Shown here piece by piece: positions 3 to 64,000 of a stretch of 64,000 bases of DNA. The number at the start of each line of letters is the position of its first letter. The first letter of the stretch is position 1. The notes under the pieces are model-generated. The model worked only from the letters and a program-made list of their open reading frames with translations, was not told where the DNA came from and ran no database searches. The position numbers and the translations under genes were made by a program. The DNA comes from Paludibacteraceae bacterium (GTDB lineage: Bacteria > Bacteroidota > Bacteroidia > Bacteroidales > Paludibacteraceae), in contig JAFZNG010000009.1 of the NCBI GenBank assembly GCA_017551025.1, forward strand, positions 62,001-126,000, written 5' to 3'.

Positions 3-779
3 GTAGCCGGCGAGATCATCTGCGATCTGGCGCGTCAGCATCATGCACCTATCCTGCCTGTCGATAGCGAGCACTCGGCTATATTCCAGTCGCTCGTAGG
101 TGAAGACCGTAGCGAGATAGAAAAGATACTACTTACTGCCAGCGGCGGACCCTTCCGTACGTTCAGTCTCGAGCAGATGCAGTCCGTCACGGCGGCCGAT
201 GCGCTGCGCCACCCGAACTGGGAAATGGGTGCTAAGATCACCATCGACTCAGCCTCGATGATGAACAAAGGCTTCGAGGTGATCGAGGCTAAATGGCTCT
301 TCGGAGTGCCGGTGGAGAAGATCCAAGTACTGGTGCATCCGCAGTCGATCGTTCACTCGGCTGTTCAGTTCACCGACGGTGCGATCAAAGCCCAACTCGG
401 TGCACCCGACATGCGACTGCCTATCCAGTATGCCTTGTCCTTCCCCGAGCGGCTCACAGCCGACTTCCCACGCGCAGACCTCTTCTCGCTGGGTAGTCTT
501 ACCTTCGAGCAGCCCGACCTGCGTAGGTTCCCCAACCTCGGACTGGCCTACGAGGCGATGCGCAGAGGTGGAAACATCCCCTGCGTACTCAATGCGGCCA
601 ATGAAGTCGTTAACCTTGCCTTCCGTGAGGGACGCTGCGGCTTCCTGCAGATGTCTGAGATCATCGCCGAGACCATGACGCGGGCAGCATTTATCGCTAA
701 GCCTTCGTACGAAGACTACGTGGCTACCGATGCTGAAGCACGACGCATAGCTGAAGATGAATTAAAAATTAAAAATTAA
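3..779 (+). CDS. dxr: 1-deoxy-D-xylulose 5-phosphate reductoisomerase (3' part)
   Basis: The reading frame is open from the window edge, so the gene is cut at its 5' end; about 258 residues are present and roughly the first third is missing. DXR makes 2-C-methyl-D-erythritol 4-phosphate in the MEP isoprenoid pathway, in the cytoplasm. Family motifs visible are LLTASGGPF, the IDSASMMNKG helix and the VHPQSIVHS segment, all in the catalytic domain. The last residues (ELKIKN) and the stop codon are written by a heptamer repeat array, so the C-terminal tail is probably not ancestral. It heads a same-strand run into rseP. Identification is secure. Confidence 0.96.
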   Translation, partial: VAGEIICDLARQHHAPILPVDSEHSAIFQSLVGEDRSEIEKILLTASGGPFRTFSLEQMQSVTAADALRHPNWEMGAKITIDSASMMNKGFEVIEAKWLFGVPVEKIQVLVHPQSIVHSAVQFTDGAIKAQLGAPDMRLPIQYALSFPERLTADFPRADLFSLGSLTFEQPDLRRFPNLGLAYEAMRRGGNIPCVLNAANEVVNLAFREGRCGFLQMSEIIAETMTRAAFIAKPSYEDYVATDAEARRIAEDELKIKN

Positions 780-794
780 AAATTACGAATTAAT
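760..794. repeat. heptamer array, unit AATTAAA
   Basis: Five 7-bp units, three of AATTAAA followed by AATTACG and AATTAAT. The array carries the dxr stop codon and fills most of the dxr-rseP gap. Confidence 0.9.
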
Positions 795-801
795 AGATCG
801 A

Positions 802-2235
802 ATGATTCAAGCAATACAATTAATACTCGCCCTTAGTTTTCTTGTGGTCATCCATGAGTTGGGGCATTTTGCTTTCGCTAAGATCTTCCATGTGCGCGTG
901 GAGAAATTCTATATGTTCTTCAATCCCTGGATCAGCCTCGTGCGATTCAAGAAGTTTGAGGGTAAATGGCATGTGAAGTTTTTCCACAAGAACAAGGACG
1001 AAGAGTGGAATAAACATCCTGAGACCACAGAATTTGGTATCGGATGGTTGCCTTTCGGCGGATACTGCGCCATCGGCGGCATGGTAGATGAGACCCATAA
1101 GAGCGAAGACCTGGCAGCCGAACCCCAACCCTGGGAGTTCCGCTCCAAACCCGCATGGCAACGGATGTTTATCATCCTCGGCGGTATATTGGTTAACTTC
1201 ATCGCCGCTCTCGTCATCTTCTCGATGGTGCTGTGGCTGTGGGGTAAGGACGAACTGCCGCTCCGTAACGTCACGTCCGGTCTCTACTACTCCGAACTGC
1301 TGCAGCAGGAGGGTTTCCGTCAGCAGGATATGATCCTCTCTATCGACGGACAGGAACCGCAGGAACTGGGCGACGTCGTTCAGCTCCTCATCATCGAGGG
1401 AAAACGCAACGTACGCGTACTGCGTGGTACGGATACCGTATCGCTACGTATGTCCGAGGACCTGGGTGAGCGCTACCTGGCTATCCAGAATGACTTCGAC
1501 CGCGAGGAACGCGAGAAAGCACGCCGTGACAGCCAGTACCAGCGAGCTCATTATATCCTGATCCAGGAGTACGTACCCTTTGTTATCGATTCCGTCATGC
1601 CGGATAACGTGGCAGACCTGGCCGGACTGCAAGCGGGCGACAGCATCGTGCGCATCGATAGTATCGACTGCGGATGCCAGGCACTGGTGCAGAATGAACT
1701 GCGTCGTCATCCCCTGGATAGTATTACGATCGGTTACTACCGTCATGGTGCGTACCGCACCGCCGATGCTTTCCTGGGCGACCAGTGCAAACTCGGCGTC
1801 ATCATGCGCACCAAGTACGACTACTATCCGGTCAATCATACCGACTACGGTTTCTGGGCATCCATACCCGCAGGTATTCAGTACGGATGGGATATGCTCG
1901 TCATGTACGTCAAGCAGTTCCGCCTCGTCTTTACCAAAGAGGGTGCACAGTCGCTCGGCGGCTTCGGTGCGATAGGTAGTATGTTCCCCGCATTCTGGAA
2001 CTGGTACGCGTTCTGGCATATGACGGCCTTCCTGTCGCTGATCCTGGCCTTCATGAACTTCCTGCCTATCCCGGCACTGGACGGCGGATATATCCTCTTC
2101 CTGCTTGTGGAGATGATTACGCGTCGCAAACCCAGCGACAAGTTCCTGGAGAAAGCCAACGAGATCGGCTTCTGGGTACTCATCGCCCTGCTGGTGCTCG
2201 CTAACGGTAACGATATATTGAAACTCTTCTTTTAG
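802..2235 (+). CDS. rseP: RIP metalloprotease RseP (site-2 protease)
   Basis: Intramembrane zinc metalloprotease of family M50 that cuts membrane-anchored anti-sigma factors and remnant signal peptides. The HExxH zinc site is H18-E-L-G-H22 in the first membrane helix, and the second zinc-site motif (PALDGG) lies near residue 425. Between them are two PDZ-like domains at about 165-235 and 255-330, and membrane helices at the C-terminus. At 477 residues the length is normal for Bacteroidota RseP. It follows dxr, a common Bacteroidales arrangement. The ATG at 802 comes directly after the repeat array and gives the expected membrane N-terminus. Confidence 0.95.
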   Translation: MIQAIQLILALSFLVVIHELGHFAFAKIFHVRVEKFYMFFNPWISLVRFKKFEGKWHVKFFHKNKDEEWNKHPETTEFGIGWLPFGGYCAIGGMVDETHKSEDLAAEPQPWEFRSKPAWQRMFIILGGILVNFIAALVIFSMVLWLWGKDELPLRNVTSGLYYSELLQQEGFRQQDMILSIDGQEPQELGDVVQLLIIEGKRNVRVLRGTDTVSLRMSEDLGERYLAIQNDFDREEREKARRDSQYQRAHYILIQEYVPFVIDSVMPDNVADLAGLQAGDSIVRIDSIDCGCQALVQNELRRHPLDSITIGYYRHGAYRTADAFLGDQCKLGVIMRTKYDYYPVNHTDYGFWASIPAGIQYGWDMLVMYVKQFRLVFTKEGAQSLGGFGAIGSMFPAFWNWYAFWHMTAFLSLILAFMNFLPIPALDGGYILFLLVEMITRRKPSDKFLEKANEIGFWVLIALLVLANGNDILKLFF

Positions 2236-2238
2236 AAT

Positions 2239-2757
2239 ATGACCGATTATTTTGTTCATGAGTCGTCCTACGTGGACGAGGGTTGCCAAATAGGCAAAGG
2301 CACTAAGATTTGGCATTTTAGCCATATTATGTCGGGCTGTACGATAGGCGAAGATTGTAATATCGGTCAGAACGTGGTTATCTCGCCCAACGTAGTACTC
2401 GGTCGTAACTGTAAGATACAGAACAACGTATCTGTCTATACCGGCGTACGCTGTGAGGACGATGTCTTCCTCGGTCCGTCGATGGTATTTACGAATGTGA
2501 TCAATCCCCGTGCAGCGGTTAGTCGCAAGGACGAGTATCGCGAGACAATCATCCGTCGCGGTGCATCCGTTGGCGCCAATGCCACCATCGTCTGTGGACA
2601 CACCCTGGGTGAGTACTGCTTGATAGGTGCCGGTTCGGTTGTGACGAAAGACGTACCGGCCTACGCGCTCATGGTGGGCAATCCTGCTCGTCAGATAGGA
2701 TGGGTGAATGCCCACGGTGACAAGTGCGCTTCCCTGGAGGAAGCAATGGAGAATTAA
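2239..2757 (+). CDS. WbpD/WlbB-type UDP-amino-sugar N-acetyltransferase
   Basis: A left-handed beta-helix acyltransferase of 172 residues built from hexapeptide repeats (for example IGKGTKIWHFSHI and IGEDCNIGQNVVI). The protein resembles WbpD/WlbB, which acetylates UDP-2-acetamido-3-amino-glucuronate on the way to di-N-acetylated uronic acids of surface glycans. The gene starts 3 bp after the rseP stop, so it is translated from the same transcript. A matching WlbA-like dehydrogenase lies far away at 34802. The stop codon lies in a heptamer array. Family assignment is firm; the exact substrate is inferred. Confidence 0.85.
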   Translation: MTDYFVHESSYVDEGCQIGKGTKIWHFSHIMSGCTIGEDCNIGQNVVISPNVVLGRNCKIQNNVSVYTGVRCEDDVFLGPSMVFTNVINPRAAVSRKDEYRETIIRRGASVGANATIVCGHTLGEYCLIGAGSVVTKDVPAYALMVGNPARQIGWVNAHGDKCASLEEAMEN

Positions 2758-2779
2758 AAATTAAAAATTAAAAATTACG
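2752..2779. repeat. heptamer array, unit AATTAAA
   Basis: Four 7-bp units (three AATTAAA and one AATTACG). It contains the stop codon of the acetyltransferase gene and fills the gap to the next start codon. Confidence 0.9.
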
Positions 2780-2780
2780 A

Positions 2781-3221: not shown

Positions 3222-3224
3222 ATA

Positions 3225-3259: not shown

Positions 3260-3262
3260 TAT

Positions 3263-4280: not shown

Positions 4281-5351
4281 TTATTCGGTGGATTGCGCTT
4301 TATTGAGTGCATTCACCAGCATACCGCACGCGGCGAGGATATCTTCGCCGCGGCTGCGGCGTATAGTAGTCGTGATACCATGCTCCGTGAGGTAGTCGCG
4401 CAGCCAGATCATCTGCTTCTCGTCCGATGCTGGGAAGGTTTGATCCACTCCTGCGTGGAAACGAATGAGGTTGATGCGGCAACTCAGCCCATGCAATAGT
4501 CGCACCAGTTCTTTGGCATGTTTTGGGGTGTCGTTCTGGCCGCCAAAACAGATATATTCGAAGCTCAGACGCCGCTGATGGGTCCAATCTTGGGTCTTAA
4601 TCAAGTCTAAAACCTCCCGAATAGGGTGGGCCTTCTCGATTGGCATAATCTGCTGACGCTCAATTGCGAACGGATTATGCAGAGAAATTGCCAAATGACA
4701 TTCGCTTTCATCCAGGAAGCGCTTCAGGCCTTTGGGGTAACCTACGGTTGAGACGGTGATGCGATGCGGCGACCATTGGCATCCCCACGGGGCAGTCATG
4801 GCCTGCAGGGCACGTAAAACCTCGTCGATATTGTCCATCGGTTCGCCTTCGCCCATGAGAACAATATTGGTAAGTGGTGATTGGTGATTGGTGATTGCCA
4901 ACCGATCAATCGAGAATATCTGGTTGAGTATATCTGCGGCCGACAGGTGTCCGTGGAAACCGAGCGTGCCGGTCATGCAGAAGCGGCAGCCCATTTTACA
5001 GCCTGCCTGCGTAGAGACGCATAGCGTAGCGCGGTCGTCCTCAGGGATGTAGACGCTCTCTATGTATTGGTTCTTGGCTTTTGGCTCTTGGCCATCGGCT
5101 TTTAGCTCAAAGAGGTATTTTTGAGTACCGTCCACCGACTCCGCTTGGGCTACGGGATCGTGCCGACCGATGGTGTAGTGTTGCTTGAGCGCCTCGCGAC
5201 CTTTTAAGGAGATATTCGTCATCTGGTCAAACGAGGTGGCACGACGCATATAGATCCATTCTGCCAGTTGCTTACCGGCAAAACGCGGTAGCCCTGCTTC
5301 CAGAGCTACCGCTTGTAATTCTTCCGGTGTTTTGCCCAGTAGGCTTACCAT
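4281..5351 (-). CDS. rlmN: 23S rRNA (adenine-C2)-methyltransferase RlmN
   Basis: Radical-SAM enzyme that methylates A2503 of 23S rRNA and A37 of some tRNAs. The [4Fe-4S] cysteines are in CKMGCRFC (C118, C122, C125). The start at 5351 overlaps the glyA stop by 7 bp and gives 356 residues; a longer frame upstream is just glyA in another frame. Two heptamer arrays sit inside the gene in frame: one adds [12 protein letters not shown]-type residues at about 83-97, the other writes TNHQSPLTN at about 154-162, just before the conserved GEGEP loop. Both fall where loops are expected. Confidence 0.95.
4869..4896. repeat. heptamer array inside rlmN, unit GGTGATT
   Basis: One GGTAAGT followed by three perfect GGTGATT units, all inside the rlmN reading frame. 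Confidence 0.9.
5069..5110. repeat. heptamer array inside rlmN, unit GGCTTTT
   Basis: Six 7-bp units: GGTTCTT, GGCTTTT, GGCTCTT, GGCCATC, GGCTTTT, AGCTCAA. 42 bp long, so a whole number of codons, and read through in frame by rlmN. Confidence 0.85.
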
Positions 5352-6625
5352 GCGAAGAGGGGGTATTGGTTCATCTCGCGATTGACCTCCTCGCGTACCT
5401 TCTGGATATTTGCCTCCGATTCGGGGTCTTGCAGTACACGGTCGATGAGTTCTACGATCCATCCCATCTTATCTTCTTTCAGTCCGCGTGTTGTGATGGC
5501 CGGCGTACCGAAACGAAGTCCCGAGGTCTGGAAGGCCGAACGGGTATCGAATGGCACCATATTCTTGTTGGTCGTGATGTCGGCACTTACCAGCGCTTTC
5601 TCTGCTACCTTACCCGTCAGTTCCGGATACTTGGTGCGCAGGTCGATAAGCATGGAGTGGTTGTCCGTACCGCCCGAGATTACCTTATAGCCCTTGTCCA
5701 TGAAGTGCTGTGCCATGACGGCAGCGTTCTTCTTGACTTGCTGCTGATAGGTCTTGAATTCCGGCGTGAGTGCCTCGCCGAAGGCAACAGCCTTAGCGGC
5801 GATGACATGCTCCAGCGGACCGCCTTGCGTACCGGGGAATACGGCAGAGTCGAGCAATGCCGACATCATCTTGATTTCGCCCTTCGGCGTGGTCTTACCC
5901 CAGGGGTTGGGGAAGTCCTCGCCCATGAGGATCACGCCGCCACGCGGACCACGCAGGGTCTTGTGGGTCGTACTGGTGACGATATGAGCATACTTAACGG
6001 GGTTGTCCAGCAGTCCGGCAGCAATCAGTCCGGCGGGGTGGGCCATATCTACCATGAAGATAGCACCTATCTCATCGGCCACCTTACGGATGCGGGCGTA
6101 GTTCCACTCACGGCTGTATGCCGATGCACCGGCGATAATCAGTTTCGGACGCTCCTCGCGAGCGGTCTTCTCCAGGTTGTCGTAGTCGATCAGTCCTGTG
6201 TTCTCGTCCAGGTTGTAGGCTACGGCGCGGAACATAAGTCCCGAGAAGTTGACAGCCGAACCGTGGCTAAGGTGACCACCGTGACTCAGGTTGAGTCCCA
6301 TAAACGTATCACCGGCTTTCAGACAGGCCATGAAGACGGCCATGTTAGCCTGTGCACCCGAGTGAGGCTGTACGTTAACGTAAGCGGCGTTGTAGAGTTT
6401 TTTGAGTCGCTCACGGGCGATGTTTTCGCCAAGGTCCACTACCTCGCATCCGCCGTAGTAGCGGTGTCCGGGATAACCCTCGGCGTACTTGTTGGTCAGT
6501 ACGCTACCCATAGCTTCCAACACTTGATCGCTCACGAAGTTCTCACTGGCAATCAACTCAATACCTTTGGTTTGACGTTCCCGTTCCTGACGGATAATGT
6601 CAAAAATCTCTGTGTCACGTGTCAT
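5345..6625 (-). CDS. glyA: serine hydroxymethyltransferase
   Basis: PLP enzyme that interconverts serine and glycine and loads tetrahydrofolate with one-carbon units. The PLP lysine motif [13 protein letters not shown] is present, as is the N-terminal [11 protein letters not shown]. Length from the chosen start is 426 residues, normal for the family. The start at 6625 (MTRDTEIFD) is chosen because the promoter -7 box lies at 6656-6663, which rules out an upstream ATG at 6658. It is first in a two-gene minus-strand unit with rlmN. Confidence 0.97.
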
Positions 6626-6695: not shown

Positions 6696-6730
6696 CAATT
6701 TTCAATTTTCAATTTTCACTTTTCAATAAT
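6696..6730. repeat. heptamer array, unit CAATTTT, between glyA and rlmH promoters
   Basis: Three CAATTTT units followed by CACTTTT and CAATAAT. It occupies the region where the -33 element of the rlmH promoter should be. Confidence 0.88.
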
Positions 6731-6768: not shown

Positions 6769-7239
6769 ATGAAACTGACGTTACTGGTGGTAGGTAAGAC
6801 CACCAATCCGCAACTCGAGACACTGATCGCCGATTACCGCGAACGACTGACCCATTACGGTTCGTTCGCGATGCAGGTTATACCGGAATTGAAGAATACC
6901 AAGTCGCTCAGCCTGTCGCAGCAGAAGCAGCGTGAGGGCGAACTGATTCTGCAGACCGTACCCCAGACGGCCGATATGATTCTCTTGGACGAACACGGTA
7001 CGGAATATCGATCGATAGAACTGGCGCAGTGGTTGCAAAAGAAGTTGACAGCCGGTCGTGATCTCTGGCTCGTCATCGGTGGGCCGTACGGATTCTCAGA
7101 AGCGGTATACAGTCGCGCCAACGGTAAACTGTCGATCAGCCGCCTGACGTTCTCGCACCAAATGATACGTCTGCTGGTGGTAGAACAACTATACCGCGCC
7201 TTTACGATTCTGCGCGGTGAGAATTATCATCACGAGTGA
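6769..7239 (+). CDS. rlmH: 23S rRNA (pseudouridine1915-N3)-methyltransferase RlmH
   Basis: SPOUT-class methyltransferase that acts on pseudouridine 1915 in helix 69 of 23S rRNA in assembled 70S ribosomes. The 156-residue length is standard. Visible motifs are LLDEHG, the glycine-rich SAM knot IGGPYGF and the C-terminal EQLYRAFTILRGENYHH signature. The start at 6769 (MKLTLLVVG) is supported by the TAACTTTG box at 6737 and by family alignment; an in-frame ATG at 6742 lies inside that box. Its last 38 bp overlap the tail of the convergent coaE. Confidence 0.96.
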   Translation: MKLTLLVVGKTTNPQLETLIADYRERLTHYGSFAMQVIPELKNTKSLSLSQQKQREGELILQTVPQTADMILLDEHGTEYRSIELAQWLQKKLTAGRDLWLVIGGPYGFSEAVYSRANGKLSISRLTFSHQMIRLLVVEQLYRAFTILRGENYHHE

Positions 7240-7822: not shown

Positions 7823-7849
7823 AGTTGTTTTGCTCCGGTTCTAAACCGG

Positions 7850-9792: not shown

Positions 9793-9820
9793 TCTAAACG
9801 CTAAACACTAAACTCTAAAC
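9793..9820. repeat. heptamer array, unit TCTAAAC
   Basis: Units TCTAAAC, GCTAAAC, ACTAAAC, TCTAAAC fill the gap between the SGNH-protein stop and the MBOAT start codon. Confidence 0.88.
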
Positions 9821-11142
9821 TATTTAAGATTCTTTCCTTCTTCGAGCCACTTGCTCAGCAGTTCGCCTGCACGCTCAGCACCCTTGGGGGTGAAGTGGAC
9901 GCCATCCTTGCCGGCGAGGTTCTGCTCTTGCCAGCGCAGCATGCTGTTGCGTCCGCCCATGGCATGGTAGAGCGACCAGTAGCCGATATGTTCCTCCTGC
10001 GCCATACGTAGCAGCAGACGGTCCATATACGGAACGCCGTCGTTGGTCTGCATCTGGCCATTCTTGCGAATAAGCATGTCGCTCGGTCCGATAAAGAGGA
10101 TCGAGGCTCCGGGCGCACGTTCTTTCATGAGGCGAACCTGTTTGCGCAGTTGCTCTACGTTGAATTTAATGGTCGCCTCGCTGTTGCGGCCGATGGCGTT
10201 ACCGCCAAACTGCATGATGATCAGGCGTGTGCATGTGGCGGCATAGAAGTCGCTACATTGCTTGGCATTCATCGAGGCGAATACGAATCCCGAACAGCCG
10301 CGCATCGGTATGTTGTCCACGATGAGGCCTGTGGGCGTCTCCAGCGAGAAACCGTACACCTGACCTTTACCCGTGAAGAGGGTGCGTACGCTATGGGTGC
10401 TGTCGGGCAAGGTGGCGAGTTGGCCGTTGTGGATGTCCTGTCCGTTGACGCGCATCGTGATACTCGGGTCGGCTACCAGCCGTACACGCGAGAAATAGCG
10501 CTCCGTAGCGGTAGAATCACCCGTGGCGGTGACGTTCACTTCGATGCGTTCGCTACCGCCGACGCGGCTGTTGTCCATGAGAGCCGACTGACCCATCACG
10601 CCGTAGAGACCATCGCTGCGGTGCATGTCCTTAGGTCCGTATACGAGATAGCGTTTCGGACCTTGTTTGGTGGTCTGACGCTGCCCGTTGATATACGTGC
10701 TCTGGCTGACCGAACGCATCGGAATAGTCTGATGCATCGGTAGCAGTCCTACGCCGCCACCGCCGTATTTGGCCTGCAGCGCACGGCGCAGCGTCATCGT
10801 GATACGGTCTTCCTCGAGTTGCGAGTCGCCGTAATGGATGATACGTACGGCACGGGTGCGGGTGCTATCGAGCGACTGGTAGAAACGTGCCATGTAGTAA
10901 CGTGTATCGCGCACCGTATCCACGATGCTCTCGTCGATCACGGTTGTCTGCACTACGGTGTCGGTCATCGCCAGTTCGTCGCCCGAGGTGGTGTCGGTCT
11001 TGAGATCGAGCATCTCGCTCATGGTCGGCCAACGCAGGTCGATATGTATGCCGCCTTCCGGCACGAGCAGACACAGCACCGCCAGGATCGCTATCAGCAG
11101 AAAGTATAAGGCCGCTATGCGGCTGGGTTTCATTGAATTCAT
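9820..11142 (-). CDS. SGNH/GDSL-like protein, MBOAT partner
   Basis: A protein of 440 residues with an N-terminal membrane anchor (about residues 8-27) and a periplasmic SGNH-hydrolase fold. The blocks seen are IIHYGDSQLEED (block I, GDS), QFGGNAIG (block III, GxN) and DGVHFTPKG (block V, DxxH). Relatives next to MBOAT genes act in acyl transfer to cell-surface polymers. The start at 11142 is preferred because it forms a TAATG stop-start overlap with trkH; in-frame ATGs also exist at 11154 and 11133. The role as acyltransferase partner is inferred from pairing. Confidence 0.82.
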   Translation of the reverse strand: MNSMKPSRIAALYFLLIAILAVLCLLVPEGGIHIDLRWPTMSEMLDLKTDTTSGDELAMTDTVVQTTVIDESIVDTVRDTRYYMARFYQSLDSTRTRAVRIIHYGDSQLEEDRITMTLRRALQAKYGGGGVGLLPMHQTIPMRSVSQSTYINGQRQTTKQGPKRYLVYGPKDMHRSDGLYGVMGQSALMDNSRVGGSERIEVNVTATGDSTATERYFSRVRLVADPSITMRVNGQDIHNGQLATLPDSTHSVRTLFTGKGQVYGFSLETPTGLIVDNIPMRGCSGFVFASMNAKQCSDFYAATCTRLIIMQFGGNAIGRNSEATIKFNVEQLRKQVRLMKERAPGASILFIGPSDMLIRKNGQMQTNDGVPYMDRLLLRMAQEEHIGYWSLYHAMGGRNSMLRWQEQNLAGKDGVHFTPKGAERAGELLSKWLEEGKNLK

Positions 11143-12641: not shown

Positions 12642-13963
12642 TTGAATAGTTTTTCCAGTTTACGTAGGGCGTGACTCTTGCAGAAGACCACGACTTGGTC
12701 GTTGGGCAGTATCTGCGTGTCGCCGTTGACGAGCAGTCCCTCACCGGCACGGACGATACCACCTATATTGGTGTCGCTCGGCAGGTCGAGGTTTTTGATC
12801 ATATCACGGGTAATCTGTGCACCTTCCTTGGCTTCGAACTCCACGATTTCCGCATCTGCGTTAGTCAGGTTGCGCACGTTAGCGCCGAGCAACATCTGGT
12901 AGATATAGCTGGCGGTTATGGTTTTCTTGTTGAGCACCGAACCGATATCCAGTCCTTCGGCCATCGGTATGAAGTCGATACTCTCGATCTCGGCGATGGT
13001 CTTGCGTACGCCGAAGCGCTTGGCGGTGAGGCAGGCGAAGATATTGCTCTCGCTGCTATTCATCGCAGCTACTACGGCATCGGCATCCTGGAGTCCTTCG
13101 GCCAGCAGGGTCTCTACGTCGGACGAATCGGCATGGATGACCAGGGCGTTAGGCAGTTTCTCGGAGATATACTGGCACTGGTGCTTGTCCGGTTCGATGA
13201 TTTTTATCTGACGGTCTTCGGGCAGGGAGAGGCAGGCCTTGTAGGTGATGCGTCCGCCGCCGAAGAAGGTGATATTCTTGATTTCGCGTTTGGGTTTGCC
13301 CAGTTGTTCGCGCATGAAGTTAATCTGCTCCTTGGTGCAAACGACATAAACCATATCGCCCTCCATGACATAATCGTTACCCGAAGGGATGATGGTCTCG
13401 TTCATGCGCTTGATGGCTACGATGCGGTAGTTGCCGTGGGCGTAATAACCCGAGCGGAAGGGTTGTCCGATGACGGGTGCTCCGGCACGCACCTTGACTA
13501 CGCACAGCTCCAGTTTGCCGTCGCAGAGCATGTAGTGGTATCGCATCCAGTTGGTGCGCAGGCTCTCCACGATATTGTTGGCGGCGAGCACCTCCGGATA
13601 GATGAGGTGGTTGAGACCCATCTGCTCAAAGAACTTACGGTTCTCGGGCAGCAGGTACTCGTAGTTGTCGATGCGGGCGAGTGTGCGCTTGGCGCCCAGC
13701 GAGTTGGCTATCAGACAGGCGGTCATGTTCTCGGTCTCGTGCGGCGTGACGGAGATAAACAGGTCGCAGTCTTTGACGCCCAGGTCCTTGAGGTCGCGTA
13801 TCGAGGTGGGACTGCCCACTTTGGTCAGTATGTCGTATGTCGCACTCAGATCGCCCAGTTTATCGGGGTTCTCGTCGAGCAGACTTATTTCCATGTCCTC
13901 GCGCGAGAGGAGTTTAGCCAGATGTGTGCCTACTTCTCCAGCGCCTGCAATAATGATTCGCAT
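12638..13963 (-). CDS. trkA: Trk potassium channel regulatory subunit TrkA
   Basis: Cytoplasmic peripheral subunit of 441 residues with two RCK halves, each an NAD(H)-binding Rossmann domain ([13 protein letters not shown] at the N-terminus and [15 protein letters not shown] near 235) followed by a TrkA-C domain. It gates TrkH in response to nucleotides. The start of trkA lies 34 bp inside the dxs gene and its stop overlaps the trkH start, so dxs, trkA and trkH are tightly packed. Confidence 0.96.
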
Positions 13964-15834
13964 AATCCTTCTTTATCTAGTTTTAGCAGATGATACAATT
14001 CTTTGGTAGAGCCGTGTTCTACGAACTGGTCACGGATGCCGAGTCGTATGACGCGGATCTGGTAGCCGTGATCGGACATCCATTCCAGTACGGCACTACC
14101 GAGGCCGCCGGCTATCATGCCGTCTTCGGCGGTGACGATGGTCTTGAAGCGCTTGCCCACTTCGTGGAGCAAGTCCTCATCCAGGGGTTTAAGCCACCGC
14201 ATGTCGTAGTGCGCAATTTTGAATTTTGAATTTTGAATTTTCAATTCATCGATGGCATCGACGACGGTGTTGCCTATAGCGCCGATTGAGAGTACCGCCA
14301 GGTCTTTTCCGTCACGCAGTTTTGCGCCTTTGCCGTATGTAACGGTGAGCGGTGAGCGGTTATCGGTTATCGGGGTTCTACCTCTTGGATAGCGAATGGC
14401 GACCGGACCGTCGAGTGTCTCGGCGAGCCGCATCATTTGGCGGAGGTCTTCGCCCGTCATGGGGGCGCAGATCTGCATATTAGGGATCGGACGCAGATAA
14501 CTTAGGTCGAGTAGGCCGTGGTGGGTTGCCCCGTCGTTGCCTACGATGCCCGCACGGTCGATACAGAAGACAACGTGCAGGTTCTGAAGCGCTACGTCAT
14601 GTACGATATTGTCGTAGGCGCGTTGCAGGAAGGTAGAGTACTCGTTGCAGTAGGGTAGCATACCCGCCTTGGCGAGTCCGGCGGAGAAGGTCACGGCGTG
14701 GCCCTCCGCGATACCTACGTCAAAGACGCGGTCGGGCAACTGTTTTTGCATGATCGACATCGAGCATCCGCTCGGCATGGCGGGTGTGACGCCTACGATA
14801 CGTTCGTTCTTCTTGGCCAGTTCCAACAGCGTCTCGCCGAATACCTCCTGCCATAGGGGCGTACTGTCTGCGTTCGCCTTTAGCCTTTCGCCATTCGCCA
14901 CGTTGAATTCTCCCGGCGCATGCCATACGGTCTGGTCGTTCTCGGCGGGGGCGTAGCCTTTGCCTTTCTTGGTGATGATATGCAGCACTTTCGGTCCGCG
15001 GTGGTTCTTGATCTCGCTCAGGATACGTACCAGTCCGATGACGTCATGGCCGTCGGTAGGACCGAAGTAGCGGATGTTGAGGCCGGTGAAGATATTGTTG
15101 GCCTGCTTGGAGAGCGCAGCTTTGAGATTGTTGTTGCGGCGCAGCAGGGCCTGTCGTTTGCGTTCATCCACGAGGTGGAGCCGTGCGGCGAGTTTATAGA
15201 GGCGCCAGCGCCATTTGTTGTACACCTGGCTGGTGGTCAGATCTACCAGATATTGCGTGAAGCCGCCCTTGAGCGGGTCGATGGCCATATGGTTGTCGTT
15301 GAGCACGATGAGCAGGTTGTTGCGGTCCATCGAGGTGTTGTTGAGTCCCTCGAAGGCCAGTCCGCCGGTCATTGCTCCGTCGCCGATGATCGCTACGACG
15401 TTGCGGCTTAATTTTTCATTTTTAATTTTTAATTTTTCATTTCCAACATCTATGCCGAGTGCGGCAGAGATGGAGTTGGAGGCATGTCCGGCGATGAACG
15501 CATCGTATTCACTCTCCGCCGGGTTGGTGAAGGGTGAGAGGCCTTTAAACTGGCGGTTGGTATGAAAGCGGTCGCGTCGGCCGGTGAGAATTTTATGGGC
15601 ATAGGCTTGGTGTCCTACGTCCCAGACGAGTTTATCCTCCGGCGTATCGAATACGTAGTGGAGTGCTACGGTCAGTTCGATAGCTCCGAGGGATGATGCC
15701 AGGTGTCCGGGGTTTTTGCTGAGTGCTTCGATGATGAATTGGCGCAACTCGTTGCATACCTCCGGTAGGGCTTCCCGCGGCAGCTTCTTAAGGTCTGCCG
15801 GTGAATCGATAGTATGTAAGTATTTGTATTCCAT
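13930..15834 (-). CDS. dxs: 1-deoxy-D-xylulose-5-phosphate synthase
   Basis: Thiamine-diphosphate enzyme that condenses pyruvate and glyceraldehyde 3-phosphate at the head of the MEP pathway. [13 protein letters not shown] and the ThDP motif [16 protein letters not shown] are in the N-terminal domain; the transketolase pyrimidine and C-terminal domains follow; 634 residues. Start 15834 ([10 protein letters not shown]) is chosen from family alignment and the promoter at 15879-15909. Four heptamer arrays lie in frame at about residues 131-142, 311-322, 487-497 and 529-540, all near predicted loops or domain linkers. The reading frame and catalytic motifs stay intact. First gene of the run down to coaE. 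Confidence 0.96.
14214..14248. repeat. heptamer array inside dxs, unit GAATTTT
   Basis: CAATTTT, three GAATTTT, then CAATTCA. Encodes lysine/asparagine-rich residues ([11 protein letters not shown]) in Dxs. Confidence 0.9.
14342..14376. repeat. heptamer array inside dxs, units GCGGTGA/TCGGTTA
   Basis: Units ACGGTGA, GCGGTGA, GCGGTTA, TCGGTTA, TCGGGGT. Encodes [11 protein letters not shown] in Dxs. Confidence 0.88.
14869..14903. repeat. heptamer array inside dxs, units GCCTTTC/GCCATTC
   Basis: Units TGCGTTC, GCCTTTA, GCCTTTC, GCCATTC, GCCACGT. Encodes NGERLKANA in the linker between Dxs domains. Confidence 0.85.
15408..15442. repeat. heptamer array inside dxs, units TTAATTT/TTCATTT
   Basis: Five units (TTAATTT, TTCATTT, TTAATTT, TTAATTT, TTCATTT). 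Encodes [12 protein letters not shown] in front of the ThDP-binding segment of Dxs. Confidence 0.9.
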
Positions 15835-15980: not shown

Positions 15981-16001
15981 TCTACACCCTACACCCTACA
16001 C
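15981..16001. repeat. heptamer array, unit CCTACAC
   Basis: TCTACAC followed by two CCTACAC units, between the terminator and the stop codon at 16026. Confidence 0.8.
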
Positions 16002-16025
16002 CATCATTCCGGTAGCGGTATGGAA

Positions 16026-21846: not shown

Positions 21847-21881
21847 ATAAATTAAAAATTAAAAATTCAAAATTAAAAATT
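21847..21881. repeat. heptamer array, unit AAAAATT
   Basis: Units ATAAATT, AAAAATT, AAAAATT, CAAAATT, AAAAATT between two convergent genes; overlaps the AraC stop codon by two bases. Confidence 0.9.
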
Positions 21882-22725
21882 ATACCTTATGGCGGAGTTT
21901 GATGGGCGATAGGCCGGTGTGCTTCTTGACGTACTGGCAGAAGAAGCTGCTGTTGGGGAAGTTGAGCCGGTAAGCCATCTCCTTGATACTGAGGTTGGTG
22001 GTCGTTAGTAGGCGCGTAATCTCGGTCATGGTCACCTCGGCAATCCATTCGGATGCGGACTTGCCGCTACGCTGCTTGCAAATCTCGGACAGGTACTTGG
22101 GCGTCAGGCCGATCTTCTCGGCGAAATACTGCACCTCGCGTTCCTGCTTGTTCTCCTGGAGCAGTTGCAAGAACTTGCGGAAGATATAGTCGCTTTGGCC
22201 GACAGGGTCCTGACGCATCTCGGTCTGCGGACCGAGGATCTCCTCCATATAGTTGAGCACCTCCAGCACGGCGGCACGGGCAATCGACTGCAGGATATTG
22301 CGGCGATAGATACTCATCGAGCTGATGAGGTTGGTGCTGAGGAACTGGTAGTAGGACTCCACCAATTGCTGCTGGTATTTGCCCAGATGCATGACGGGAT
22401 TGGTGTGTACGTAGTTCTGCTTCTCCCACCAACGAGGTTCCAGACGAAAACACTCCATAAAGATGTCATCGAAGATCTGGCTCTTCACGCGGAGCATGTA
22501 GAACTGCAGATCCGACGAAGCCTGCAACGAACGAATCAGCGTGCGCGGCATGAAAATCATCATATCGTTCGCCTCCAGCTTCACGGAACGCTGGTCTAAC
22601 TCAATCTGAATACTACCTGCACGACAATAGATCAAACTCGTCGTGTCGCCGAGACGATAGTTTTGCTTGGAAGGCAAGTCTTCGATAAGATTTGTCAAAA
22701 AAACATTATCCGTTTTCTGTGCCAT
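21880..22725 (-). CDS. AraC-family transcriptional regulator
   Basis: A 281-residue regulator with an N-terminal cupin-like sensor domain and a C-terminal AraC/XylS DNA-binding domain. The two helix-turn-helix units are at about 195-220 (KIGLTPKYLSEICKQRSGKS) and 240-280 (SIKEMAYRLNFPNSSFFCQY, then GLSPIKLR). The effector is unknown. It is divergent from the export operon starting at 22937, so that operon is a plausible target, and it converges on the kinase gene. Confidence 0.93.
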   Translation of the reverse strand: MAQKTDNVFLTNLIEDLPSKQNYRLGDTTSLIYCRAGSIQIELDQRSVKLEANDMMIFMPRTLIRSLQASSDLQFYMLRVKSQIFDDIFMECFRLEPRWWEKQNYVHTNPVMHLGKYQQQLVESYYQFLSTNLISSMSIYRRNILQSIARAAVLEVLNYMEEILGPQTEMRQDPVGQSDYIFRKFLQLLQENKQEREVQYFAEKIGLTPKYLSEICKQRSGKSASEWIAEVTMTEITRLLTTTNLSIKEMAYRLNFPNSSFFCQYVKKHTGLSPIKLRHKV

Positions 22726-24919: not shown

Positions 24920-25905
24920 AAAAAGAGAAAAAAGGCAGTCTGCTATTGGGATTAGTAGCGATGCTGATTGTGGTTGTGGTGGTTGCATTGGTGGGCGTCT
25001 TTGCCCTGCAACCCGAAGAGGAATTGATTACCGGCGAAGCCGAAGCAACGGAATACCGCGTATCGGGTAAGGTGCCCGGACGTATCGAGGAGTTCCGTTT
25101 CGAGGAGGGAGACCGCGTGAAGAAAGGCGACACCGTGGTAGTGGTCTATTCGCCGGAAGTAGAGGCTAAGATGGCACAGGCGTCTGCTGCACGCCGTGCG
25201 GCTAATGCTATCAATAAGAAAGCCAAGCACGGTGCCCGTTCGCAACAGATAGAGGGTGCCTTCGAACTCTACCAGAAAGCCCAGGTGGCCGAAGAGATCT
25301 ACCGCAAGAGCTACGAACGCGTACAAGGTCTGTACGAGAAGGGTGTGGTGAGCGAACAGAAACGCGACGAAGTGGAAGCCCAATACCAGGCCGCCGTAGC
25401 TACCACGCGTGCTGCGAAGAGTCAGTACGACATGGCCATGGCCGGTGCACGTGCGGAAGATAAAGAAGCCGCTGCGGCGCAGGTAGCCCGCGTGGACGGC
25501 ATCATCGAGGAGATTAATTTGGCCCGTGATGAGCGCTATCTGACCTCGCCTGTGGACGGCGAAGTGTCGGAGTGCTTCCCTAAGGTAGGCGAACTGGTGG
25601 GACAGGGTAGTCCGGTGATGGCGATCGTGGACCTGGATGATGCATGGTTCAGTTTTGCCGTGCGCGAAGACCTCTTGCCCGATATTACCGTTGGCAAGCA
25701 GTTTCGGGTGCGTATCCCCGCCCTGGGCGATGAACTGTATGACGTCAAGGTGACGTATATCCGTGCGATGGGCACCTATGCTACCTGGCGTAGCACCAAG
25801 CAAAACGGCAGTTACGACGTGCGTACCTTTGACGTGAAGTGCAAACCCGTGAAGCCCATTAAGAACCTCCGTCCGGGAATGACGGCGATTTTGGTTCAAA
25901 ATTAA
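24916..25905 (+). CDS. HlyD-family periplasmic adaptor
   Basis: A 329-residue membrane fusion protein linking inner-membrane permeases to the TolC-like duct. A membrane anchor spans about 11-32, followed by a biotinyl-lipoyl half-motif (VPGRIEEFRFEEGDRVKKGD), a long helical hairpin at about 90-190 and a beta-barrel with SPVDGEVSECFPKVGELV. The last residues and stop codon come from a heptamer array. Confidence 0.94.
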   Translation: MKKEKKGSLLLGLVAMLIVVVVVALVGVFALQPEEELITGEAEATEYRVSGKVPGRIEEFRFEEGDRVKKGDTVVVVYSPEVEAKMAQASAARRAANAINKKAKHGARSQQIEGAFELYQKAQVAEEIYRKSYERVQGLYEKGVVSEQKRDEVEAQYQAAVATTRAAKSQYDMAMAGARAEDKEAAAAQVARVDGIIEEINLARDERYLTSPVDGEVSECFPKVGELVGQGSPVMAIVDLDDAWFSFAVREDLLPDITVGKQFRVRIPALGDELYDVKVTYIRAMGTYATWRSTKQNGSYDVRTFDVKCKPVKPIKNLRPGMTAILVQN

Positions 25906-25931
25906 AAATTAAAAATTAAAAATTCAGAATT
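25897..25931. repeat. heptamer array, unit AAAAATT, at hlyD stop and permease start
   Basis: CAAAATT, three AAAAATT, CAGAATT. It supplies the HlyD stop codon and reaches the probable TTG start of the next gene. Confidence 0.9.
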
Positions 25932-34801: not shown

Positions 34802-35779
34802 ATGAAAAATTTTGCACTAATCGGTGCTGCCGGCTATATTGCTCCGCGTCATATCAAGGCAATTGCGGATACGGGGAACAACCTGATGGTAGCGTATGAT
34901 AAGTTTGATAGCGTAGGTCGTCTGGACAGTTCGTTCCCGGATTGTTCGTTCTTCACGGAGAATGAGCAGTTCGACCGTTTCTGCTCCAAGCAGATGCGTA
35001 CTGACAATCCGCTTCACTGGATGTCGATTTGTACGCCGAATTATACCCACGATGCGTTTATTCGTTACGGCCTACGTATAGGATGCAATGTGATATGCGA
35101 GAAGCCGTTGGTGTTGAACCCGTATAATATCGACAACCTGGTAGAACTGGAGCAGGAGACAGGACATCAAGCCTATACGATCCTGCAGCTTCGACTGCAC
35201 GACAAGATACGTGACCTGAAGCAGAAAGTGGAAGCCGGTCCGAAGGATAAGATCTATGACGTAGATCTGACGTATATCACCAGTCGCGGTAAGTGGTATT
35301 ACTCGAGTTGGAAGGGCGATATCCATAAGTCGGGCGGCATTGCTACGAATATCGGTGTGCATTTCTATGATATGTTGCAGTGGATATTCGGTCCGGTGAA
35401 GCGGAACGTAGTGCATGTCATGTCGTTTGACCGTGTAGCAGGTTATCTGGAGCTGGAGAAAGCCCGTGTGCGTTATTTCCTGAGTATCAATAGTGAGTGT
35501 CTGCCGGCGAATGCCGTGCAGGGCGAGAAGCGTACCTACCGTACGCTGTCGATCGACGGCGAGGAGTTTGAGTTCAGTCAGGGTTTCACGGAGTTGCATA
35601 CCGAGAGCTACCGCCAGATCTTGGCCGGCAACGGTTTTCGTATCGCGGAGGCACGGCCGTGTATTGAGACGGTCAGTGAGATTCGCCATTCGGATCCGAT
35701 CGGTCTCAAGGGCGACTATCATCCGCTGGCTAAGTTGCCGCTGGCGAAGCACCCGTTCGGATGGGACGAGAAAAGATAA
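34802..35779 (+). CDS. WlbA/WbpB-type UDP-GlcNAcA 3-dehydrogenase
   Basis: A 325-residue Gfo/Idh/MocA oxidoreductase. The N-terminal NAD-binding site is FALIGAAGYIAPRHIKAI and the catalytic lysine is in VICEKPLVLNP. Sequence features (YIAPRH, RGKWYYSSWKG, GGIATNIGVHFYD) match WlbA/WbpB, which oxidises C3 of UDP-N-acetylglucosaminuronate on the way to di-N-acetylated uronic acids. The WbpD-type acetyltransferase of the same pathway is at 2239. The stop codon lies at the edge of a heptamer array. Confidence 0.88.
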   Translation: MKNFALIGAAGYIAPRHIKAIADTGNNLMVAYDKFDSVGRLDSSFPDCSFFTENEQFDRFCSKQMRTDNPLHWMSICTPNYTHDAFIRYGLRIGCNVICEKPLVLNPYNIDNLVELEQETGHQAYTILQLRLHDKIRDLKQKVEAGPKDKIYDVDLTYITSRGKWYYSSWKGDIHKSGGIATNIGVHFYDMLQWIFGPVKRNVVHVMSFDRVAGYLELEKARVRYFLSINSECLPANAVQGEKRTYRTLSIDGEEFEFSQGFTELHTESYRQILAGNGFRIAEARPCIETVSEIRHSDPIGLKGDYHPLAKLPLAKHPFGWDEKR

Positions 35780-35813
35780 AAGTTGAAAGTTGACAGTTGA
35801 AAGTTGAAAGAAG
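35779..35813. repeat. heptamer array, unit AAAGTTG
   Basis: AAAGTTG, AAAGTTG, ACAGTTG, AAAGTTG, AAAGAAG, starting at the stop codon of the WlbA-like gene. Confidence 0.9.
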
Positions 35814-35820
35814 TCGTCTA

Positions 35821-35848
35821 GTTTAAAGTGAAAAGTTTAAAGTTGATG
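35821..35848. repeat. heptamer array, unit GTTTAAA, reaching a start codon
   Basis: GTTTAAA, GTGAAAA, GTTTAAA, GTTGATG. The ATG in the last unit is the likely start codon of the first Wza-like gene. Confidence 0.8.
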
Positions 35849-54069: not shown

Positions 54070-54102
54070 AAATTAAAAATTAAAAATTATGAATTATAAA
54101 TT
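54068..54102. repeat. heptamer array, unit AAAAATT
   Basis: ATAAATT, AAAAATT, AAAAATT, ATGAATT, ATAAATT fill the whole gap between the AmpG-like stop and the pssA start, touching both. Confidence 0.9.
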
Positions 54103-55426
54103 AGTTCAGTCGTTTGTGGACAAAATAGGTGATTGCAAAGGTGGTTATACTACAAGTGTTGGCAATCCAGAAGAACGAGGTATAACCTACCGCCTGCTCG
54201 ATATATCCGGCCACAAAGCCAGGAATCATCATCGAGAGTGCCATAAAGGCGGTACAGATGGCATAGTGCGAGGTCTTGTACTTGCCTTCCGAGAAATACA
54301 TCATATACATCATATAGGCGGTGAAGCCGAATCCGTAACCGAATTGCTCGAAGCTGACGGCGGTGCCAATGAGCCAAAGCGAGTCGGGTTGCGCCATACT
54401 GAGGTAGCAATAGACGAAACTCGGCAGCGTCAGGGCAGCTGCCATGAGCCAGATAGAGCGTTTCAGTCCGCGGCGCGAGATGAATATACCGCCCAGGATA
54501 CCGCCCAGCAGCAGGAAGATGACGCCGATCGTGCCATAAAGCAGGCCGACTGTGTCGGTGCTGAGTGCCAGACCGCCACCTATGATCTGTCCCTCACGCA
54601 CAAAGGCTTCGCGGGCATCGACTAGAAAGGGCTGGCTCAGTTTGACCAGGAATCCTTCGCTAAGGCGGTAGAAGAGCATAAAGGCGATAGCCAGTCCTAC
54701 GCCGGGCTTGGTGAAGAAGGTACGGAAAGCCTCTCGCAGTTCGCGGCCTACGGCGGCCAATTGTTTGTCGTCGGCGGTTTTCTCTTCCTCAGCGCGGGGC
54801 AGGAAGAAACTGTGATAAAGCGTTACAAGCAGCAGAATGCCGCAGGTAGCACCCATGGTTACTTGCCAAGACAGCGGGATATTACCGGTGCGGTTCTCGA
54901 TATAGCCGGCGATATAGACCAACACACCCTGCGAGAAGACGGCGGCGATGCGATAGAACGTAGAGCGAATGCCAACAAAGGCGGCCTGACTCTTTGTGTC
55001 GTGCGCCAGCATATAGTAGCCGTCGGCAGCTATGTCGTGGGTAGCTGAGGCAAAGGCGGCGATGATGAAAAAGATGAGGGTCCAGCGGAACAGGCCTACA
55101 GAAGTCTGCTTAGCCGCAATCATCTGTGCATCAGGGTGGGGCAGCGTGACTACCAGCAACAGACACAGCACGGTCAGTAGCGCCTGCATCGCTATGATCC
55201 ACCAGCGTTTGGTGCGGATAACATCCACAAACGGACTCCAAAGACCCTTCAGGAACCACGGGAAGTAGAGTAGCGTCGTGAAGAACGCCAACTGGCCGTT
55301 AGGCACACCCATCTTGGCGAATAACATCACCGAGATACTATTCACCAGGAAATAGGGGATGCCTTCCGTGAAGTATAGCGTCGGCACCCAAGCCCATGGA
55401 CTAATATGTCTGCTTTTTCCTTTCAC
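54101..55426 (-). CDS. AmpG-like MFS transporter
   Basis: 441 residues, about 12 membrane helices, MFS fold. The N-terminus WVPTLYFTEGIPYFLVNSIS and LKGLWSPFVDVIRTKRWW match AmpG/PAT-type permeases that import anhydro-muropeptides for wall recycling. The start is a GTG at 55426 inside a heptamer array; no ATG fits. No separate promoter was recognised, so transcription may come from the upstream folding-factor gene past its hairpin. Substrate inferred from family. Confidence 0.85.
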   Translation of the reverse strand: MKGKSRHISPWAWVPTLYFTEGIPYFLVNSISVMLFAKMGVPNGQLAFFTTLLYFPWFLKGLWSPFVDVIRTKRWWIIAMQALLTVLCLLLVVTLPHPDAQMIAAKQTSVGLFRWTLIFFIIAAFASATHDIAADGYYMLAHDTKSQAAFVGIRSTFYRIAAVFSQGVLVYIAGYIENRTGNIPLSWQVTMGATCGILLLVTLYHSFFLPRAEEEKTADDKQLAAVGRELREAFRTFFTKPGVGLAIAFMLFYRLSEGFLVKLSQPFLVDAREAFVREGQIIGGGLALSTDTVGLLYGTIGVIFLLLGGILGGIFISRRGLKRSIWLMAAALTLPSFVYCYLSMAQPDSLWLIGTAVSFEQFGYGFGFTAYMMYMMYFSEGKYKTSHYAICTAFMALSMMIPGFVAGYIEQAVGYTSFFWIANTCSITTFAITYFVHKRLN

Positions 55427-58014: not shown

Positions 58015-58068
58015 AAGGGGTTGATTTTTAGTGTTGTAAGGGTTTCTGAGATTGCGGATAGTGTATTG

Positions 58069-58112
58069 AATCACATATTAATCACGTATTAATCACCTGT
58101 TAATAGCCTATT
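58069..58112. repeat. 11-bp tandem repeat in a leader
   Basis: Four units: AATCACATATT, AATCACGTATT, AATCACCTGTT, AATAGCCTATT. Different period from the heptamer arrays. Confidence 0.8.
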
Positions 58113-58183
58113 AGACCCCATGCGCAGGCCCTGTATTTTCATGGGATAGCGAGGAATCAATGGCGGGTTTCCGAAATCGAGTG

Positions 58184-60031: not shown

Positions 60032-60033
60032 TA

Positions 60034-60061
60034 ATGGCTAATGGCGAATGGCCAAAGGCTA
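60034..60061. repeat. heptamer array, unit ATGGCTA
   Basis: ATGGCTA, ATGGCGA, ATGGCCA, AAGGCTA just after the infC stop. Confidence 0.85.
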
Positions 60062-60097
60062 AAGTATAAAAAACCGTTCGAAGGCCTACCTTATAAG

Positions 60098-60766: not shown

Positions 60767-60793
60767 TAGGCTTCCGCGAGGAAGCCTATTTTG
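60767..60793. terminator. bidirectional terminator after rplT
   Basis: TAGGCTTCC-GCGA-GGAAGCCTA stem with T runs on both strands, serving rplT and the convergent PCMD-like gene. Confidence 0.85.
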
Positions 60794-60832
60794 TTATCTG
60801 GTTATCTGGTCAACTGGTCAACTAGTAAACTA
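60793..60832. repeat. octamer array, unit GTTATCTG/GTCAACTG
   Basis: Five 8-bp units: GTTATCTG twice, GTCAACTG, GTCAACTA, GTAAACTA. Period 8 instead of 7; supplies the stop codon of the PCMD-like gene. Confidence 0.85.
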
Positions 60833-62656: not shown

Positions 62657-63179
62657 TGCTCTTGATATGCTTTAGGAAGTAAATTATTTGGTCAAACAAG
62701 TATAGCGGCGAGTCCTGGGCCGGTGTGTTCACCATGAAGTCGAGCAGGCCGTTGTCGCGTTGCATACCGGTCTTGAAATCGGCACGGGCATACATGGTCA
62801 TGTACTCGAGTGGCAAGACGGGTTGCTGGGTGAGGTTGATGAGCAGGTCGTACTGACGACGCTGCAGCGACTCCACCAGTTCGCTATGGGGGATATCGAA
62901 GAAGTTATGGTCTTTGAGGCCCATGATGCGACTCTGGGGCAGGATAGGCGACTGGATTTCTTTCTTCGGGGCATAGCCGAGCAGCACGACATCTTTGTCG
63001 TCGGCCAGGAGTTTGCGACGAATCGTATCGGTTACGACGCGGTTGTCCTCCAGCAGGTCGCTCTGGAAGAGCACCAGTACGCTACGCACCTGGTCGTAGT
63101 GGGGAAACGCCACGTTACGAGTCGGTTGACGGCGTTGGAAGAATCGAAAAATAAATGCTTTGATCTTATTCATTTTCAA
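62649..63179 (-). CDS. DUF6913-family protein
   Basis: 176 residues. Basic N-terminus, then [19 protein letters not shown] and later [17 protein letters not shown]; matches a Bacteroidota family found next to dapA. Start at 63179 overlaps the ligA stop as ATGA. Function unknown. Confidence 0.8.
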
Positions 63180-63186
63180 TTTTCAA
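63173..63186. repeat. short heptamer array, unit TTTTCAA
   Basis: Two TTTTCAA units covering the end of ligA and the start of DUF6913; they supply the ligA stop codon. Confidence 0.6.
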
Positions 63187-64000
63187 TTCGTTCGAGGAAT
63201 TCATCCTCTGTTATGAGCGGTATGCCGAGTGCTTCGGCTTTTTTGCGCTTCTCGGGACCCATATTCTCGCCCGCCAGCACAAAACTCGTCTTCTTGCTGA
63301 TGCTACCGGAGTTCTTGCCGCCGTGGGCCTCGATCAAGTCTTTGTATTCATCGCGGCTGTGCTGGCTGAACGTGCCGGAAATGACGATCGTCTGACCTGC
63401 CAGTTTGTCCGAAACATTCGCCTCAAGCCCTTCGCCATTCGCCTCCAGTTGTACCCCTGCTTCGCGTAGGCGGTTGAGGATCTCAACGTTGCGCATGTCC
63501 TCGAAGTAGTGCACGATATTCTCGGCGATCTGCGGTCCGACATCTTCTATGGCGCAGAGCTGTTCCGTAGTAGCCCATTGCAGGCTGTCGATCGAGGGGA
63601 AGCGACGTGCTATTTTCTTAGCCGTTGTCTCGCCTACCATGCGAATGCCGAGTGCGAAGAGTACACGACTCCAAGGTACTTGTTTCGAGGCTTCGATACC
63701 GGCCAGCATGTTCTGCGCCGACTTCTCACCCAGGCGTTCTTGCGAGGCGATATCTGCGAGTTTGAGGTCGTAGATATCTGCGATGTTATGTAGTAATCCT
63801 TGGCGGTAGAGTAGGTCGATCGTCTCTTCACCGAGACCGTCTATGTTCATCGCCTTGCGCGAAACAAAATGCTCTATCTTACCCTTTATCTGCGGCGGAC
63901 AACCGGTCTCGTTCGGACAACGCCATGCGGCTTCGCCGGGTATTCTAACCAACTCCGTGCCACACTCGGGGCAAACTGTCGGAAAAATCTGAGTAATCGG
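63176..64000 (-). CDS. ligA: NAD-dependent DNA ligase LigA (3' part)
   Basis: The frame is open to the window edge, so about 274 C-terminal residues are present of about 670. Visible are the zinc finger half (CPECGTEL and CPNETGC), the helix-hairpin-helix domain ([38 protein letters not shown]) and the C-terminal BRCT domain ([19 protein letters not shown]). A heptamer array writes [10 protein letters not shown] between the HhH and BRCT domains. It joins Okazaki fragments. First gene, within the window, of the operon with DUF6913, dapA and the PCMD-like gene. Confidence 0.96.
63415..63449. repeat. heptamer array inside ligA, units CATTCGC/CCTTCGC
   Basis: CATTCGC, CTCAAGC, CCTTCGC, CATTCGC, CTCCAGT, in frame between the HhH and BRCT domains. 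Confidence 0.8.

Follow-up and report, generated by a model that had tools for sequence, protein, structure and literature searches.

Arrays of tandem 7-bp units in a Paludibacteraceae genome and their turnover among related species

Heptamer arrays in the window and in the sampled genome

The stretch of DNA analyzed here, called the window, comprises 64,000 nucleotides from an uncultured Paludibacteraceae bacterium (GenBank assembly GCA_017551025.1, contig JAFZNG010000009.1, positions 62,001 to 126,000 of the forward strand) and belongs to a draft genome of 1.94 Mb (36 contigs). Its genes include dxr, rlmN, glyA and dxs, and short arrays of tandem 7-bp units lie between genes, across gene ends and inside coding sequence (Table 1). 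A preliminary description of the sequence had reported about 23 such arrays, in intergenic gaps and inside genes on both strands. That number is close to the 22 period-7 rows returned by Tandem Repeats Finder with the score cut-off set to its minimum, and the placement was borne out when the arrays were mapped to genes called with our own simple gene caller. A stricter scan, in which segments were kept at a score of at least 10 and 20 fourth-order Markov sequences served as the null, found 17 period-7 segments where 0.1 were expected; the harmonic period 14 gave 12 segments and every remaining period 6 or fewer. The arrays run across the window as described, except that near its far end, at about 63.4 kb, only a weak repeat was seen by eye. 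The weakest items, at 13828 and 55419, have 2.1 copies each and could have arisen by chance.

A larger sample of the same genome consisted of the window and 20 hand-chosen stretches of large contigs, 464 kb in total (24% of 1.94 Mb). At a score of at least 12, there were 115 period-7 segments, with 76 and 39 at the harmonics 14 and 21; periods 9, 8, 18 and 11 had 13, 11, 11 and 8 segments, and periods 2-6 had 0-3 each. Five shuffled replicates of the 464 kb gave period-7 counts of 0, 1, 0, 0 and 0. The constancy of the period across many different units, as first described, was therefore evident at both scales. A genome in which period 7 was not enriched had been named beforehand as the outcome that would count against the claim; in the 24% of the genome sampled, and in the 80 loci from relatives described below, tandem 7-bp units were enriched over other periods. 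By extrapolation, about 480 arrays are expected in the whole genome. Short-period repeats should become more numerous under a general slippage or mismatch-repair defect, and periods 2-6 were near background in the 464 kb.

Table 1. Heptamer arrays in the window, with positions counted from its first nucleotide
Feature	Position	Strand	Context
AATTAAA array, 4.7 units	760..792		contains the dxr stop codon (gene 3-779 +); 9 bp from its end to the next ATG
AATTAAA array	2752..2777		3' end of gene 2239-2757 +
AATCACC-family array	4868..4897		within rlmN (4281-5351 -); encodes ITNHQSPLT
TTGGCTY array, weaker	5067..5092		within rlmN; encodes QEPKAKNQ
CAATTTT array	6696..6725		divergent gap between glyA (5345-6625 -) and gene 6769-7239 (+)
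CTAAACN array	9794..9821		occupies the whole gap separating two - strand genes; relatives have other units or nothing in this gap
AAAATTC array	14215..14246		dxs variable stretch 4; encodes 11 residues
ACCGCTC/AACCGAT array	14343..14373		dxs variable stretch 3; encodes 10 residues
AATGGCG-family array	14876..14900		dxs variable stretch 2; encodes ANGERLKAN
AAAAATT array	15411..15442		dxs variable stretch 1; encodes 12 residues
CTACACC array, three perfect units	15982..16002		intergenic
AAATTAA array	21849..21882		between convergent gene ends
AAAATTA array	25898..25931		across the stop codon of gene 24916-25905 +
AGTTGAA-type array with non-repetitive core GAAGTCGTCTA, then further heptamers	35771..35845	+	one copy of a dispersed composite element
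AAATTAA array	54070..54103		between two - strand genes; contains the stop codon of the upstream gene
TAATGGC array	60032..60064		immediately past a stop codon
ATTTTCA array, short (2.4 units)	63172..63188		gene junction

Distribution among relatives

The DXS protein of the window was used to retrieve 80 named records assigned to the Paludibacteraceae, Bacteroidales or Bacteroidia. According to their titles, almost all were metagenome-assembled genomes (MAGs) and many were derived from ruminants. The 80 loci, of about 20 kb each (1.55 Mb in total), were scored at the same threshold and contained 365 period-7 arrays, a density of 23.5 per 100 kb; individual loci had between 0 and 23. Four further samples from the same genus had 10.4, 15.7, 6.2 and 0 arrays per 100 kb. 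In other genera of the family there were 8 arrays in 256 kb (about 3 per 100 kb), in 5 of the 13 stretches kept, and 387 kb from the order's other families contained 7 (about 2 per 100 kb), in 4 of 20 stretches. The genus is thus enriched about seven- to thirteen-fold, and unevenly. Because period 8 was as frequent as period 7 in the 387 kb from the order (7 segments each), the prominence of seven belongs to the genus and family and does not extend to the order sample.

Unit repertoire, drift and length

Thirty-four different units were found among the 115 arrays of the sampled genome. AAAAATT accounted for 47 of these arrays and the others were spread over 33 units, which is not the single dominant consensus per genome of the published cases consulted. 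The exact AAAAATT 21-mer had 31 copies in this genome and 0-1 in each of four other genomes of the genus. Drift within arrays, which the preliminary description had noted, was real yet position-specific: among 183 units of the AAAAATT family, three positions had 4 changes and the other four had 76.

The units had also been described as free in sequence, and in this respect the description did not hold. The probability that two arrays in the 80 loci share a unit was 0.067 within one species' locus and 0.016 between species, with 0.0010 for a null of local heptamers and 0.0026 for letter-shuffled units. Permutation of the species labels gave 0.017, with a maximum of 0.027 in 500 permutations. 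Within-locus sharing was 0.059 for pairs more than 500 bp apart, between-species sharing was 0.0146 when orthologous pairs were left out, and a unit was held in common by 123 of 2613 orthologous-site pairs. In other words, the arrays take their units from a repertoire found again in other species, and each genome draws on it unevenly.

Array length showed no steady fall-off. The largest bin was 28-34 bp, or about four units per array as in heptameric repeat families, with 68 of 148 arrays in this genome and 211 of 505 in the relatives, and the 21-27 bp bin was smaller (38 and 126, respectively).

Placement relative to genes

Of the 115 arrays, 49 were intergenic, 30 lay at gene edges and 36 were coding. 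Among the 79 non-coding arrays, 61 had a stop codon and 41 a start no more than 10 bp away, compared with 11% and 13% of random intergenic 31-mers, a control that samples intergenic bases evenly and so favors long gaps. Forty-nine arrays spanned the 3' end of a gene and 37 wholly contained the stop codon. Seven is a multiple of three plus one, so a stop triplet repeated in an array closes all reading frames in the space of three units, and stop-bearing arrays should make gene ends tolerant.

All told, 57 of the 115 arrays touched a stop codon and 43 had a start within 10 bp, a placement that would suit sites bound by a post-transcriptional or DNA-binding regulator, the role proposed for TAACTGA repeats. 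Such a function seems quite unlikely to explain the arrays, however, as AAAAATT-family arrays in codirectional gaps had no strand preference (22 sense, 19 antisense), nearly a third of all arrays (36/115) were in coding sequence, and related species differed in the unit found at the same site.

Arrays in dxs

The window gene at 13930-15834 (minus strand) encodes DXS. Each of its four arrays codes for a stretch whose length differs between relatives. In a sequence alignment with a DXS of solved structure (2o1s), gaps fell at all four array places, and the four stretches are probably surface loops. Among 72 dxs genes, that of this genome and 71 from relatives, 54 had an array, and all 103 of the arrays found (103/103) were in the four variable stretches. 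The four stretches held 11, 17, 14 and 19 units among 18, 26, 19 and 29 arrays, some of the units being one-base relatives of each other. Elsewhere the protein was conserved, with 61-87% identity in the 24 relatives aligned. Stretch 4 illustrates the variation: it was an ATCAGAA array in one relative (L057) and a GGACAAA array in another (L082).

Palindromic modules were also seen in dxs. A module of the CTCCCTTGAGGGGAGGTCGGGAGGGG type occurred in frame and at the same place in stretch 4 of L065, L074, L094 and L127, and with small changes in L069, L096 and L104. Other hairpin-like modules, CAGACCGGCTTCGCCTGACAGA and CAGTCCGAAGGACGG, recurred as well, and some dxs stretches of other species held palindromic modules.

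Turnover between related species

Arrays were compared in 15 pairs of loci that were 84-95% identical, with sites that had arrays in both members counted from each side. The 180 resulting array rows comprised 60 with the same unit in the relative, 10 with another unit, 53 in which the array was absent and 57 that were not alignable and were dropped. Replacement of the unit is exemplified by a gap that holds an AAAATTA array in L062 and an AAGGTGA array in L076, and by dxs stretch 4 in L057 and L082. Of the 53 absences, 47 were tested for an exact (7/7) copy of the unit in the relative, and none was found in 35; the other 12 had one. The same gene caller was applied to the relatives for the absences that were re-aligned. 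In coding sequence, the net length change was a multiple of 3 in 29 of 29 and a multiple of 7 in 7 of 29, and outside coding sequence 13 of 16 were gains of 17-38 bp.

The relatives are draft MAGs by title, which raises the question of an assembly or binning artefact. To this we give next to no weight: separate assemblies have arrays in common at orthologous sites, the frame was kept in every one of the 29 coding differences, and the arrays are probably shorter than a sequencing read of the short-read type.

Where the unit was conserved, the length was usually conserved too, being equal in 46 of 60 rows, and 8 of the other 14 differed by a multiple of 7. Heptanucleotide repeats upstream of hmwA in Haemophilus influenzae act in phase variation, and a 7-bp change shifts the reading frame, as would be expected of contingency loci. 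Nonetheless, it is very unlikely that the arrays serve phase variation. Only 13 of the 115 were perfect, 2 of these 13 being at least 28 bp long; the comparison of conserved rows, made between species, found length mostly kept; and the window genes that were hit include dxs, dxr and rlmN.

A dispersed composite element and the search for a mover

When up to 2 mismatches were allowed, the core 21-mer of the composite element at 35771-35845 had 30 matches, spread over 12 of the 61 genomes of the genus; 6 of the matches were in this genome, and the reversed core gave 1. Twenty core loci were fetched, two of the hits being one place. Their flanks otherwise differed, and in most of them, as judged by eye, the core had same-type heptamers on at least one side. 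In L080 and L088 the element was in the same gap in opposite orientations. This core element is the clearest sign of dispersal.

The presence of the core element in 12 of 61 genomes, together with palindromic modules in the same dxs stretches of other species, is what could be expected if the arrays were miniature mobile elements driven by a dedicated transposase or integrase. We consider this unlikely. Inspection of the aligned insertions by eye revealed neither terminal inverted repeats nor a target duplication of constant form, and most arrays had no shared flank. The transposase family that was searched, Y1, did not track the arrays: a match was found in 19 of 38 hand-picked genomes of relatives (the genome of the window was outside this search), several array-rich genomes had no match, and the four best-scoring genomes had no array in their loci. 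A reverse transcriptase was found in 9 of 39 hand-picked genomes and not in this one. Mobilization by a RAYT or by a reverse transcriptase was rejected, as neither was associated with the arrays in the 38 and 39 genomes, respectively, that were picked from the 80 loci.

Other repeats in the window and genome

A second, rarer class of arrays had a period of 11 (CTAATCACCTA type), at 58064-58113 and in other stretches of the genome, and a further class had a period of 8. Between 37593 and 41270, long repeats of 15, 27 and 30 bp inside coding regions are probably ordinary protein repeats. The gap at 7823-7849, between two genes, contained a short inverted repeat of the CCGGTTTAGAACCGGAGCAA type, which was retained with changes in the same gap of L054, L077, L078, L084 and L123. 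Promoter-like words were over-represented in the 20 other stretches of this genome (L003-L022), for example TAATTTTGCA and TACCTTTGCA (listed as reverse complements), which we take to resemble the Bacteroidales -7 element.

Comparison with known heptamer families

The preliminary description knew of no heptanucleotide repeats in Bacteroidales, but repeats of TAACTGA have been published for Beggiatoaceae, Cyanobacteria and five Bacteroidetes, with Paludibacter among the hosts (PMC4679880). Like the arrays in this study, these are heptamer arrays between genes and near starts, and they are unevenly distributed. They differ in having a single unit, with related heptamers rarely repeated, and in lying mostly just upstream of starts, whereas here there are many units, mostly at stops, and the main family has no strand preference. 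A search of the open-licence literature for heptamer or 7-bp repeats in Bacteroidetes, Bacteroidales or Bacteroides found nothing beyond this paper.

The G-rich GGGNATC heptamers of Xanthomonas and Nostoc (PMC4692102) are also interspersed, mostly in four units with position-specific drift, and in many cases related species have them between corresponding genes, altered in length and sequence. As studied, they form one unit family per genome and 7-11% are intragenic in Xanthomonas; here there are 34 units and 36 of 115 arrays are coding. The likeness to cyanobacterial short tandemly repeated repetitive sequences that was first suggested is upheld: those of Calothrix (as cited in PMC4692102), set beside our arrays by description, are likewise short tandem heptanucleotides, of few units. 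Geobacter metallireducens has GGACCGG in 49 copies of four units and a second class of five units (PMC2700814). These elements resemble the present arrays in having four tandem heptamers, within and between genes, in many copies; they have been read as regulatory and fall into few consensus families, while here there are many families that differ among sister species. Rickettsia palindromic elements (PMC10969869) are similarly inserted in frame in unrelated metabolic genes, but they are palindromic, about 150 bp long and encode a conserved peptide, in contrast to tandem heptamers of about 30 bp that encode many peptides. Heptamer families are already known, and what is found here is a dense, many-unit, protein-invading form.

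Origin of the arrays

The common generating process proposed in the preliminary description is supported by these data. The reading that we favor, with moderate confidence, is that ready-made blocks of about 30 bp arrive at a site, are filtered by reading frame and then slip in 7-bp steps. Its basis is the period, the positions, the in-frame rule, the repertoire, the different units seen at one site in related species and the scattered shared core. Most arrays would reach their site as a block of 4-5 units instead of growing from local sequence, and the source of the block would be the pool of heptamer arrays already in the genome. A block would survive if it landed between genes, across a stop codon or, within a protein, at a tolerant stretch and in frame; others would be lost. 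Later, surviving arrays would decay by point mutation, and their copy number would seldom change, often by 7-bp steps. The copying in trans that this requires may most plausibly involve short single strands that are captured, by means of microhomology, at breaks or replication forks; short-patch double illegitimate recombination offers a parallel. A periodic donor presents the same microhomology at every seventh base and could outcompete other donors. As to why the step is seven, a published guess is that it reflects how long a piece of DNA the polymerase interacts with (Mrazek 2007, cited in both PMC4679880 and PMC4692102).

Several results weigh against the arrival of blocks. No donor-to-copy event was caught, and no enzyme was tied to the arrays among those examined (reverse transcriptase and Y1 transposase). 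The query for the core itself includes one heptamer, so its link with the arrays is partly built in. Shared flanks other than the core element were few beyond short-word chance, a level that was judged and not computed. Irregular stretches common to arrays of this genome were not above those of order-shuffled arrays, at 24 bp (45 versus a mean of 33 and a maximum of 54) or at 17 bp (48 versus 51); copying of blocks together with their internal variants is accordingly unsupported. Coding rows were often not clean insertions, the net change being negative in 11 of 29 and zero in 3 of 29, because the relative carries another insert. In addition, over the 47 absences the unit fitted the sequence of the relative more closely than did the other units of its genome (5.72 versus 5.21 of 7, p = 0.0009), several of the 12 relatives with an exact copy appear to hold a weaker array of the same family, and a local signal was present over seven sites (5.25 versus 5.17, reached in 0 of 300 shuffles).

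The local signals are those expected if slippage alone made the arrays, with a 7-nt step favored by the polymerase duplicating local sequence, selection acting on frame, and sharing of units arising from species-specific instability or bias. The preponderance of multiples of 7 among length changes at conserved arrays (8/14) also fits this account, as do one gap in which several arrays were seen by eye to repeat the gene-end AAGTGA and the finding of a large survey that tandem heptamers are the most abundant intergenic repeats in many prokaryotes, with no clear functional clue (PMC6344855). We regard slippage alone as a serious but somewhat improbable explanation, since unit use was genome-specific, length peaked at 28-34 bp instead of decaying, one dxs stretch held up to 19 units, the exact seed was missing in 35 of 47 relatives, and the core element was dispersed.

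The arrival of ready-made blocks may be taken a step further, and we do so tentatively. The arrays could be self-propagating DNA, the period-7 block being the form best copied by a bacterial process that captures short DNA. They would spread in trans, come to dominate a genome with its own unit (AAAAATT in this one), displace one another where a site allows it and go on altering the tolerant parts of essential proteins. If true, this would account for the frequency with which tandem repeats in prokaryotic intergenic DNA have a period of seven.

This genus shows the process that makes arrays entering a housekeeping enzyme in frame. Species related to this genome often hold a block of a different unit, or none, at the same spot. 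The case is unusually informative. With many sister species and the extrapolated number of arrays in this genome, the birth, replacement and slippage of arrays can be followed site by site.

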